Below are positions 22,406-27,078 of a stretch of DNA of 64,000 nt, piece after piece. Both the position numbers and the translations under genes were made by a program. The notes beneath the pieces are model-generated. The model did no database searches. It saw nothing but the letters and a program-made list of their open reading frames with translations, and was not told where the DNA came from. This DNA is from Comamonadaceae bacterium (GTDB lineage Bacteria; Pseudomonadota; Gammaproteobacteria; Burkholderiales; Burkholderiaceae_C). The stretch is from assembly GCA_947450695.1 (NCBI GenBank), contig CANFWV010000005.1:43591-107590 (forward strand). The letters run 5' to 3'. How positions within the stretch are numbered: the first letter of the stretch is position 1; the number at the start of each line of letters is the position of its first letter.

Positions 22406-22496
22406 AGACAAGCAAGATTTAAGCCTAAACGGTGCAGTCACGGCTTGTCCGCCATGGCATTTCGAAAGTCACTCGGACGTTGGCTACAATCGCGGC

Positions 22497-22650
22497 TTGT
22501 CATTGGGGAGTAGCCGCCTTCCGATTTGCTGCAAAGCAAAGGGCGAGAGGGGTTTGCGTCAACAGACTTGTTGGGCCTTGTAGAGAGGTCGACATGGCGC
22601 AAACGGTTGAAAAACAGCTTGGCGAGACCTTTGACTGCACAGCCTTCAAG
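22497..22650 (+). promoter_or_regulatory. yybP-ykoY (manganese) riboswitch
   Basis: Conserved blocks ATTGGGGAGTAGCCG...GCGTCAACAGACT...GGCGAGACCTTTGAC match the family; upstream promoter TTCGAA-18-TACAAT. Confidence 0.92.
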
Positions 22651-22716
22651 CTTCACCTGCTTTTGGCCGGAGATGCTGTGCGGTCATTGGTTTCACTCCG
22701 GCCGGAGTTATTCAAC

Positions 22717-23280: not shown

Positions 23281-23335
23281 AAAGGGTGATGTCTGTGGTG
23301 ATGCGGTATCGTGACAACGGCGCGATATACTCACC

Positions 23336-23430
23336 ACGCGCCGATTTGCTCAGCTTGCGGGCGCTTAAAAAGTACAGCTAAAGACGACTTCCAGAAACTC
23401 GGATTCGCTTTAGCGACGCCGGGTTTTTGT
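23336..23430 (+). promoter_or_regulatory. SAM-II-like riboswitch plus terminator/antiterminator upstream of metX
   Basis: CGCGCCGATTTGCTCAGCTTGCGGGCGCTTAAAAAGTACAGCTAAAG resembles the SAM-II aptamer; stem GCGCC/GGCGC and pseudoknot TTGC/GC(T)AA; terminator AAACTCGG...CCGGGTTT+T-tract. Confidence 0.85.
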
Positions 23431-23449
23431 TTTTTCTGCAGGTGATTAT

Positions 23450-24610
23450 TTGACCTTAGTCGCAACACCGCTGACCATGCACTTCAAGGAAGCGTTGCCG
23501 CTTCAAAGCGGCGCGTGCATCCGTGCCTACGACTTGAGTTATGAGACGTACGGCGTGCTCAACGTAGACAAGTCGAATGCTGTGTTGATTTGCCACGCGC
23601 TCAATGCCTCGCACCATGTGGCGGGCGTCTACCTTGATGAGTCGGGCCAGGTCAAAGCCAAGTCCGAAGGCTGGTGGGACACCATGATCGGGCCCGGCAA
23701 GTCAGTGGATACCGATCGCTTTTTCGTCATCGGCGTCAACAATCTGGGTTCGTGCTTTGGATCGACTGGGCCTATGCAGGTTAACCCCGAGACCTTGGAG
23801 ATATACGGCGGTGATTTCCCGGTTGTCACCGTCGAAGACTGGGTCGATGCCCAAGCCCGACTGCTGGATGCTTTGGGGATACAGACTTTGGCGGCTGTGA
23901 TGGGCGGCAGTCTAGGCGGCATGCAGGCTCTGGCTTGGACGCTGCGATACCCCGATCGCGTGCGACACGCCGTGGTGGTGGCGAGCGCGCCCAATCTGAA
24001 TGCTGAAAATATTGCCTTCAACGAAGTGGCGCGTCGCGCCATCACGACCGATCCGGATTTTCACAGCGGTCATTTTTATAAGCACGGCGTATTACCGAAG
24101 CGCGGCCTCAGAATTGCCAGAATGATTGGTCACATTACGTACCTGAGTGACGATGTCATGAATGAAAAGTTTGGCCGGCAATTACAAGCCCCTGCGTTTG
24201 TCGCTGGGCAAGCTGCTTTCCCTTTCAAGTATTCAACGCAAGACGTGGAGTTCCAAATCGAAAGTTATTTACGCTACCAAGGGGACAAGTTCAGCGAATA
24301 CTTCGATGCGAACACGTACTTGCTGATCACGCGTGCACTTGATTATTTTGACCCGGCCAGCGCTTACGGCGGCAATTTGAGTCTGGCCTTGGCTAAAGCT
24401 AGCGCTAAATTTTTGTTAGTCAGCTTCTCCACTGATTGGCGCTTTTCGCCTGCCCGCAGCCGTGAAATTGTCAAAGCGCTACTGGACAACCAGCGTGACG
24501 TCAGCTACGCCGAGATCGATGCGCCGCACGGTCATGACGCGTTCTTGTTGGAAGATGCTCGTTACTTGGGCGTGGTTCGCTCCTACTTCAATAGCAAGGT
24601 GGCGGTATGA
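23450..24610 (+). CDS. metX: Homoserine O-acyltransferase MetX (TTG start)
   Basis: [32 protein letters not shown]-terminal [12 protein letters not shown]. Confidence 0.97.
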
Positions 24611-25215
24611 ATGTGCCACCCAAAGTATTGAAAGAAAGCTCGCCGGACTTGCTGTCAATTGCTCGTTTGGTGCCGCACGGCTCACGTGTTCTTGACCTTG
24701 GTTGCGGCACAGGTGAGTTGCTGGCGCATTTGATTCGCGAACGTGGTTGCTCGGGTTATGGCGTCGAGATTGATGATGCCAATGTGCAGGCCTGTGTCGA
24801 GCGTGGCGTTAATGTGATTCAGCTCAATCTTGAAGCCGGACTGGCTCTGTTCGCTGATCGATCGTTTGATGTGGTGTTGCAAATTGACACGCTGCAGCAC
24901 CTGCGCAATGCTGAAATAATGCTTCGCGAAACCGCTCGCGTTGGGCGCATGGGCATCGTTGCATTTCCTAATTTTGGGCATTGGCCGAATCGATTGGCGG
25001 TGTTGCGGGGTCGGATGCCGGTCACCAAGGTGTTGCCTTACCAGTGGTACGACACGCCCAATATTCGAGTCGGCACACTGCAGGACTTTCGCGCCCTGGC
25101 CCTTAATAATCAGCTGAAAATTCTCGACCAATTTGGCTTGCAAGATGGCGAAGAAATACGTTTTTGGCCAAATGCACGCGCTAGCCGAGCCGTTTTCAAA
25201 GTGCAGCGCGCTTGA
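24607..25215 (+). CDS. metW: Methionine biosynthesis protein MetW
   Basis: [35 protein letters not shown]; overlaps metX stop. Confidence 0.96.
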
Positions 25216-25266: not shown

Positions 25267-27078
25267 ATGAGTGCATCGCCCCCAAACTTAAAGAAACAAT
25301 TTTCTGAACGCTTGTTCGGCAGCTGGGTCAGTGAGGTTTCGGCGCGCACGCTGCGCGCCGACGCTATGGCCGGTTTGCTTGGCGCCGTGCTGGTGTTGCC
25401 GCAAGGCATTGCCTTCGCCACGTTGGCCGGATTGCCAACCGAGTACGGTTTGTACACCGCCATCATCCCGTGCATCATTGCGGCCTTGTTTGGCTCGAGT
25501 TGGCACGTCATGTCGGGGCCGACGAATGCCAATTCGCTGGCACTGTTTGCTATGTTGTCGCCGTTGACCATGCCTTTTAGTCCGGCTTACATACAGATGG
25601 CGTTGGTCGTCACGGTGATGGTTGGCGTTATGCAGTGGTTAATTGGTTCATTACGCTTGGGCACGCTGGCCAACTTCATTTCCCCGGCGGCGCTGTTTGG
25701 TTTTACGTCAGGTGCTGCGGTGCTCATTGCCATTTACGCTTTGCCTGATTTGCTGGGTATCGGTTCCGCTGGTGAGCACGGCGCTGGTGCACTGCTGAGG
25801 CATGTCGTCTGGCAGTGGACATGGGTTCAGCCAGCGGCGCTGGCGGTGGCTGTTGTGACGATGGTGGTGGCGCTGGTTCTGCGGCGCTGGCGACCGCACT
25901 GGCCCTACATGTTGGCTGGGCTGGTCTGCGCCACACTTTTTGCATGGGTGGCGGGCGGACAAACACCGGGGACGCCTTTTTCAAGCTTGCGGATGGTGGG
26001 CGCAGTAGCCGTGCCGTGGCCACGTTTTTCGGTGCCGCAGATCAATTGGGCCTCTGTGTCCGAGTTGTTCGGTTTGGCTTTTGCGCTGACGATCGTCGCG
26101 TTGGGTCAGTCAATCTCCATTGCCAAAGCCGTTGCGGCACGGTCGGGTCAGCGCATTGATGCTAATCGCGAATTTCGCGGTCAGGGCTTGTCCAACATGG
26201 TTGGCGGGTTCTTTTCCTCTTATGTGTCTTGTGGCTCGATGAACCGTTCTATGCCCAATTTGCAAGCGGGAGCCCGCACGCCTTTGGCGTCCGTGTTTTC
26301 AGCATTACTGCTACTGGCTTTGGTGGCCGTGAGCGCACCGCTGTTAGCACAAATTCCCATGGCGGCACTGGCGGCGTTGTTGTGCGTGGTGGCTATTTCA
26401 TTGCTCGACCTGCCGCGTTGGCGTCAGCTTCTGAGGTTGAGTCGAACCGAATTTTTCGTGGCCTTGGCGACCATGGTGGCGACGGTCACGATTCGTCTAG
26501 AGATCGCGATTTTGCTGGGCACCTTGCTTTCGCTCATCTCGTTTTTGTACCGCACCTCACATCCGGCGATGCGCACCATGGGATTTGAAAGTACCAGCCC
26601 TGACCGCCAGTTTGTGGTGATGGGTCATGTTCCAAGCAGGGCGGCCTCGACGGAAGTGAATGTATTGCCCGAGTGCCCTCAACTCAAACTGCTGCGCATG
26701 GAGGGTGAAGTTTACTTTGGCGCGACGCAACACGTTGCCGACACGCTGCACGCGCTTCGCCATGTGTCTCAACCGCAAAAGCATTTGCTGGTGATGGCTA
26801 AAAGCATGAACTTCATCGATCTCGCCGGAGCCGAGTTGTGGGAGGACGAACTCAATGCGCGTCGCGCGATGGGTGGAGATTTGTACTTTCACCGGCCACG
26901 TCCGGAAGTGGTTAGCCTCTGGAAAACCACCGGCTTCAGCCGCTTGCTCGGCCCTGAGCATCAGTTCCTCGACAAACGTACGGCGATTGCCTCGATTTTC
27001 AACAAGCTCGACCCTGAGATTTGTCGGCATTGCACCGCGCGAGTCTTTTGGGAATGTCAGAGCGTGCCGGCGCCTTGA
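25267..27078 (+). CDS. SulP/SLC26-family anion permease with STAS domain
   Basis: 603 aa; LLGAVLVLPQGIAFATLAGLPTEYGLYTAIIP. Confidence 0.93.
   Translation: MSASPPNLKKQFSERLFGSWVSEVSARTLRADAMAGLLGAVLVLPQGIAFATLAGLPTEYGLYTAIIPCIIAALFGSSWHVMSGPTNANSLALFAMLSPLTMPFSPAYIQMALVVTVMVGVMQWLIGSLRLGTLANFISPAALFGFTSGAAVLIAIYALPDLLGIGSAGEHGAGALLRHVVWQWTWVQPAALAVAVVTMVVALVLRRWRPHWPYMLAGLVCATLFAWVAGGQTPGTPFSSLRMVGAVAVPWPRFSVPQINWASVSELFGLAFALTIVALGQSISIAKAVAARSGQRIDANREFRGQGLSNMVGGFFSSYVSCGSMNRSMPNLQAGARTPLASVFSALLLLALVAVSAPLLAQIPMAALAALLCVVAISLLDLPRWRQLLRLSRTEFFVALATMVATVTIRLEIAILLGTLLSLISFLYRTSHPAMRTMGFESTSPDRQFVVMGHVPSRAASTEVNVLPECPQLKLLRMEGEVYFGATQHVADTLHALRHVSQPQKHLLVMAKSMNFIDLAGAELWEDELNARRAMGGDLYFHRPRPEVVSLWKTTGFSRLLGPEHQFLDKRTAIASIFNKLDPEICRHCTARVFWECQSVPAP

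Follow-up and report, generated by a model that had tools for sequence, protein, structure and literature searches.

A probable SAM-II riboswitch with a transcriptional OFF platform before metXW of a Comamonadaceae bacterium

The window analysed here, a 64,000-nucleotide stretch of contig CANFWV010000005.1 from a Comamonadaceae bacterium, carries the genes metX and metW behind a leader. The initial annotation had proposed metXW as the target of a SAM-II-like riboswitch, and the models NF047916 and TIGR02081 do identify metX and metW directly downstream. SAM-II elements are expected to precede genes for methionine or SAM synthesis, and that is the position found. The nearest named MetX proteins (79–87% identity) come from Polaromonas and Comamonadaceae. 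The genes and their start signals are as follows:

23326–23331, plus strand: probable −10 hexamer TATACT, read from the sequence, ending 6 nt 5' of stem P1 of the element
23440–23444, plus strand: probable Shine-Dalgarno sequence AGGTG of metX, read from the sequence, outside the terminator
23450–24610, plus strand: metX, encoding a homoserine O-succinyltransferase-type MetX, with a TTG start (NF047916, 628 bits, cut-off 560)
24607–25215, plus strand: metW, overlapping metX by 4 nt in an operon (TIGR02081, 235.2 bits, cut-off 189.5; PF07021)

Immediately before this locus is a manganese riboswitch of the yybP-ykoY class (22493–22658, plus strand; RF00080, 67.1 bits); the gene under it, for a GDT1-family cation/proton antiporter (PF01169), adjoins the SAM-II locus upstream. 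Directly 3' of metXW lies a gene for a SulP-family sulfate permease (25267–27078, plus strand), with a TIGR00815 match below cut-off, and this gene may share the control exerted by the metX leader.

A SAM-II aptamer can be fitted to positions 23338–23384, and inspection of the sequence found every segment named in the initial annotation base for base in its place. The parts are:

23338–23342, plus strand: 5' strand of P1, GCGCC (sequence, RF00521; invariant in 87/87 aligned metX-type copies)
23343–23347, plus strand: GAUUU, third strand of the triplex at the ligand site, holding the equivalents of U10–U12 (RF00521 alignment; role from PMC6061858)
23355–23358, plus strand: 5' strand of the pseudoknot P2b, UUGC (sequence, RF00521; unchanged in 86/87 rows, the other being gapped)
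23360–23364, plus strand: 3' strand of P1, GGCGC (sequence, RF00521; invariant in 87/87)
23377–23382, plus strand: 3' strand of P2b, GC(U)AA, with the A contacting the methionyl end of SAM (RF00521); it doubles as the 5' strand of the antiterminator

P1 stands directly 5' of the GAUUU third strand, as in SAM-II, and the pseudoknot UUGC:GC(U)AA is found both in the sequence and in the RF00521 alignment. The equivalents of all the ligand-contact bases (U10, U11, U12, U20, U21, U44, A45, A46 and A47; roles transferred from the SAM-V numbering in PMC6061858) are present, and they are invariant across the metX form. More generally, hardly any change is seen among 87 metX-form copies in the P1, GAUUU, UUGC and GCUAAA blocks: the three U of GAUUU are kept in 87/87 and its G in 84/87, whilst GCUAAA is kept in every aligned row that reaches that far. 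Since P1 and P2b are invariant, no covariation can be claimed for the metX form. Pseudoknot covariation in close relatives, which had been suggested as a check, is therefore non-deciding for this form, but it is seen in the sister form before metK described below. A possible P2a is limited to 2 bp (UC:GA, 23350–23351 with 23383–23384) and, as judged by eye, is not conserved in comamonads; a 2-bp P2a has precedent in SAM-II (PMC6061858).

The recommended search with the Rfam SAM_alpha model gave an RF00521 match spanning all 79 model positions (27.2 bits, E=2.9e-4 in 401 nt), and this match is the best in the 3.3-Mb genome (E=5.7e-4). The score does not reach the curated cut-off of 36 bits, which is a database annotation threshold and not a structural feature; at curated thresholds Rfam reported nothing at the metX leader, and the match came with relaxed thresholds. 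The metX copy of a genome from the same family (G049) scores 36.2 bits, above the cut-off, and other relatives score up to 52.5 bits. With a model made from the metX leaders of nine relatives (R2; the window copy included), the window copy scores 70.1 bits (E 8e-17 in its own genome). Judged from these sequences, the low RF00521 score of the window copy seems to reflect a limitation of the model.

Compared with known SAM-II elements (RF00521, SAM_alpha; PMC1273637, PMC2258182), the metX element shares P1, GAUUU, the UUGC:GC(U)AA pseudoknot, a promoter before P1, a downstream terminator and a target in methionine synthesis. It differs in its short loop 1, a P2a of 2 bp at most, the sub-cut-off score and a clear antiterminator, in which a P2b strand pairs with the terminator loop. 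SAM-V (RF01826; PMC6061858) has a triplex ligand site in common with the element, and a short P2a such as may exist here, but is translational, with the Shine-Dalgarno sequence inside P2a, whereas here that sequence (23440–23444) lies beyond the terminator. We rejected SAM-V on this ground and because RF01826 had no match up to E=10 in the 401 nt; the SAM-II long-loops model likewise had no Rfam match up to E=10 in the same 401 nt. The class proposed by the initial annotation agrees with the RF00521 alignment, the rank of the match in the genome, the relatives' models and the ligand-contact bases. On this sequence evidence, the element before metX is a member of the known SAM-II class, and the switch itself is an ordinary one.

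A promoter just before P1 was already noted for SAM-II in 2005 (PMC1273637). A TANANT hexamer occurs 3–11 nt 5' of P1 in 82/123 leaders, against an average of 1.4 at shifted positions, and by sequence transcription of the metX leader would start at or just 5' of P1. No convincing −35 box was found at this promoter, and a generic promoter/terminator scanner reported neither the promoter nor the terminator hairpin of the metX leader.

Two alternative hairpins can be drawn downstream of the aptamer:

23377–23414, plus strand: predicted antiterminator hairpin of the ligand-free state, GCUAAAG.CGA..UCC / GGA.UCG.CUUUAGC (RNAfold, −15.8 kcal/mol)
23392–23429, plus strand: predicted intrinsic terminator hairpin of the SAM-bound state, CAGAAACUCGG / CCGGGUUUUUG, with the core AAACTCGG/CCGGGTTT (RNAfold, −20.4 kcal/mol)
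23424–23436, plus strand: U-rich tract of the terminator, read from the sequence

The terminator had been described by its core alone (AAACTCGG at 23395–23402 with CCGGGTTT at 23419–23426, followed by a T-rich run). That core is present, although the stem is longer (23392–23402 with 23419–23429) and there is an inner 4-bp stem. Similarly, the complementarity of GCTAAAG (23377–23383) and CTTTAGC (23408–23414) holds, but the antiterminator extends beyond these 7 bp, RNAfold adding the helices CGA:UCG and UCC:GGA; thus extended, it occupies G23401–G23402 of the 5' arm of the terminator. In stepwise folding, the antiterminator is predicted for RNA 3' ends from 23414 to 23426, whilst from 23428 onwards the terminator is favoured. 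With this folding order, the outcome would depend on whether the pseudoknot has captured GCUAA by the time the loop is transcribed, and this is consistent with an OFF switch. The proposed switching logic was thus recovered by modelling: two mutually exclusive folds are predicted in the right order in time, and the complementarity behind them is conserved. As the Shine-Dalgarno sequence of metX lies beyond the terminator, control is probably transcriptional.

The switch would work as follows. When SAM is scarce, the free GCUAAAG (23377–23383) would pair with CUUUAGC near the tip of the terminator hairpin, aided by CGA:UCG and UCC:GGA; this hairpin would take bases that the terminator needs, and RNA polymerase would continue into metX. 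At high SAM levels, the ligand would occupy the triplex pocket formed by P1, GAUUU and UUGC:GC(U)AA and so lock GCUAA in the pseudoknot. The antiterminator could then not start, the terminator would form and metXW would be switched off. That SAM is the ligand, that the switch works in this direction and that termination actually takes place are what we infer from the architecture.

We examined the same features in leaders of relatives, which share kinship, so that the counts against shuffled sequences overstate independence. A comparable terminator is present in 111/120 distinct leaders. In these 111, the region of the P2b 3' strand scores on average 14.35 for complementarity to the apical segment of the terminator, and shuffled loops reach 9.92 (sd of the mean 0.20). 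Folding of nascent RNA that stops where the loop ends put five or more of the six GCUAAA bases into the antiterminator in 58/107 leaders (shuffled 6.6, maximum 14). Matched changes of flank and loop occur, GCUAAAU with AUUUAGC in L122 and GCUAAAC with GUUUAGU in L103, and L118 pairs in a shifted register (GUUCAGCUA with UAGCUGAAC). In bulk, single-position covariation of the antiterminator flanks is weak (95% paired versus 92% permuted), there being too little variation to decide.

A true SAM-II aptamer could also stand before a hairpin that is a constant attenuator, with SAM acting on promoter use or RNA stability. There is a reported precedent in S. meliloti, where metA has a strong terminator 3' of a SAM-II aptamer with no predictable SAM-II-driven antiterminator, and where the SAM response lies partly at promoters and RNA stability (PMC9373788). 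Moreover, several surveyed families outside the comamonads (e.g. L179–L185) have the terminator without the loop complementarity, so in such leaders the platform is different or absent, and it is not universal. However, the complementarity between the aptamer 3' strand and the terminator loop is far beyond chance, here and in most comamonads, and the folds are mutually exclusive and appear in the right order; for the metX leader of the window we therefore regard a constant attenuator as improbable. Aptamer homology, location, two mutually exclusive folds and conserved antiterminator complementarity are all obtained by computation, and we put the probability of a SAM-II riboswitch with a transcriptional OFF platform before metXW of this Comamonadaceae bacterium at about 0.86.

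SAM-II in this group is not new in itself: the discovery paper includes Bordetella among the carriers (PMC1273637), and betaproteobacterial SAM-II elements with terminators have been in the literature since 2005 and 2007 (PMC1273637, PMC2258182). Among 80 metX loci of comamonads, the majority have the element. We surveyed 200 betaproteobacterial genomes of the window's order, taken as GTDB Burkholderiales. RF00521 gave matches at E<=0.001 in 87 of them, only 36 being above the cut-off, whilst R2 matched in 137/200 at E<=0.01. Standard RNA models thus miss most SAM-II copies in betaproteobacteria: the Rfam model at its cut-off recovers 36/200 genomes, compared with about 140–150 for the new models under a more permissive threshold (E<=0.01 per genome).

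Two earlier descriptions concern the same locus type. A 2014 study reported a 'metXZ' element of six conserved blocks, with a pseudoknot and a terminator, 5' of metXW and metZ in betaproteobacteria (PMC4239095). By the accessible part of that study, metXZ shares with our element the clade, metXW, the pseudoknot and a terminator/antiterminator; there the authors make no link to SAM-II, and their antiterminator proposal uses other regions. One could therefore take the metX element for a distinct RNA that senses something else in methionine metabolism, given the same clades and genes and a pseudoknot and terminator that its authors did not class as SAM-II. This is very unlikely, as RF00521 aligns end to end with every ligand-contact base kept and copies above the Rfam cut-off exist in 36/200 betaproteobacterial genomes. 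As far as the accessible part of the 2014 report goes, both names most likely refer to a single element; the agreement in architecture, genes and clade makes it very probable that metXZ is SAM-II.

The second description is Bp2_287, reported, in the part of the source available to us, as a Burkholderia sRNA near methionine genes (RF02424; PMC3521395) and modelled on the opposite strand of the same locus type, 5' of metX/metZ. RF02424 has a match in the window (23307–23429, minus strand) and at relatives' loci L220–L229. An opposite-strand small RNA in place of a riboswitch could claim this match (22.8 bits) and the detection of the founding RNA by RT-PCR in Burkholderia; as far as could be seen of that report, the RT-PCR is not described as strand-specific (PMC3521395). 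Against this, 22.8 bits is far under the RF02424 cut-off of 70, none of 100 genomes had a match above that cut-off, and the conserved −10 box, the aptamer and the terminator are all oriented toward metX. We rejected the antisense sRNA on strand and score, and give it even less weight than a distinct metXZ RNA. RF02424 matches run opposite to metX-form matches in at least 11 listed cases, as expected if the antisense of the same element had been modelled, and RF02424 appears to be built on the antisense of the SAM-II leader in its metX form.

A sister form of the SAM-II element precedes metK, which encodes the SAM-producing enzyme. In the window's own genome, the RF00521 match ranking second (22.2 bits) lies directly 5' of metK:

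G000:C21:6937–7018 (L002 1501–1582), minus strand: metK-type element (model R1)

In leaders of relatives, the consensus of this form is CGCC-GAGUUAA-...-GACAACUUGCR-GGGCG-variable-YGCUAAAGCGUCGCC. It shares the pseudoknot core UUGCR:YGC(U)AA with the metX form and belongs to the same class by alignment; it differs in having usually GAGUU for GAUUU (the U10 position is usually G, and U in some copies), a covarying P2a of 3–4 bp (GAC:GUC), a variable loop 3 and metK as the target. R1, the model of the metK form, matched in 149/200 betaproteobacterial genomes, in part by cross-matching the metX form. Comparison by eye of metK positions and R1 matches showed 28 of the surveyed genomes, belonging to 13 families, to have the element directly 5' of metK; RF00521 at E<=0.001 recovered 0/28 of these sites. 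Across 57 distinct sequences, 96.2% of the pairs of the metK form are formed, compared with 87.3% after shuffling and 35–54% with slid partners, the alignment being anchored on P1 only, so that the P2 counts are unfitted. Two-sided changes are found in 4/5 P1 pairs, in 2/3 P2a pairs and in the P2b extension pair. A leader peptide (frames AELIDNLQG...) was rejected as an explanation of the metK-type element, the length of loop 1 varying by non-multiples of three.

The expression platform of the metK form is probably different from that of the metX form. A paired Shine-Dalgarno sequence is predicted in 16/19 metK leaders (shuffles 12.0, maximum 16), which hints faintly at translational control. 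The accessible part of the 2014 study left metK in betaproteobacteria without a known regulator (PMC4239095). We found no description of SAM-II-type metK control in betaproteobacteria in the open-access literature, an earlier mention elsewhere being possible, and the metK sister form is apparently new.

The two forms also occur together and before other genes. A metX-type copy is followed about 100–200 nt later by a metK-type copy at L161, L163, L164, L166, L173, L175, L177, L209 and L217; at L161, L164 and L173 the tandem precedes genes for a small unknown protein and an apparent MATE-family transporter. At L156, L157, L158, L210 and L213, in more than one family, a metK-type element lies 5' of an apparent MoxR-like AAA ATPase gene. 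Ten matches to the metK model occur in genome G419 (e.g. L217), which belongs to the same class but to an order other than the window's; most of them form tandem pairs, spread over several loci. In family f15 (L197, L200, L206), a metX-type copy with its own terminator precedes metK, and the aptamer 3' strand finds its complement in the loop of that terminator.

For the metX leader, the mechanism of a SAM-II switch can be read from the sequence, where the expression platform of this class is usually vague. The broader pattern, in which metXZ and RF02424 are unified with SAM-II and a metK form is added, outranks the element of the window in interest. Within the limits of the portions of those reports that were accessible, an orphan element of 2014 and a misassigned sRNA family are probably explained as one known riboswitch class, and the metK leaders point to SAM-II-type control of metK. 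We think it fairly likely that betaproteobacteria hold a large SAM-II regulon missed by annotation, including the divergent metK form, in which SAM would repress its own synthase and, through transcription termination at the metX form, would stop homoserine activation; the parts of this regulon not described before would be the metK form and the tandems that it often makes with a metX-type copy 5' of other genes, such as those for MATE transporters.
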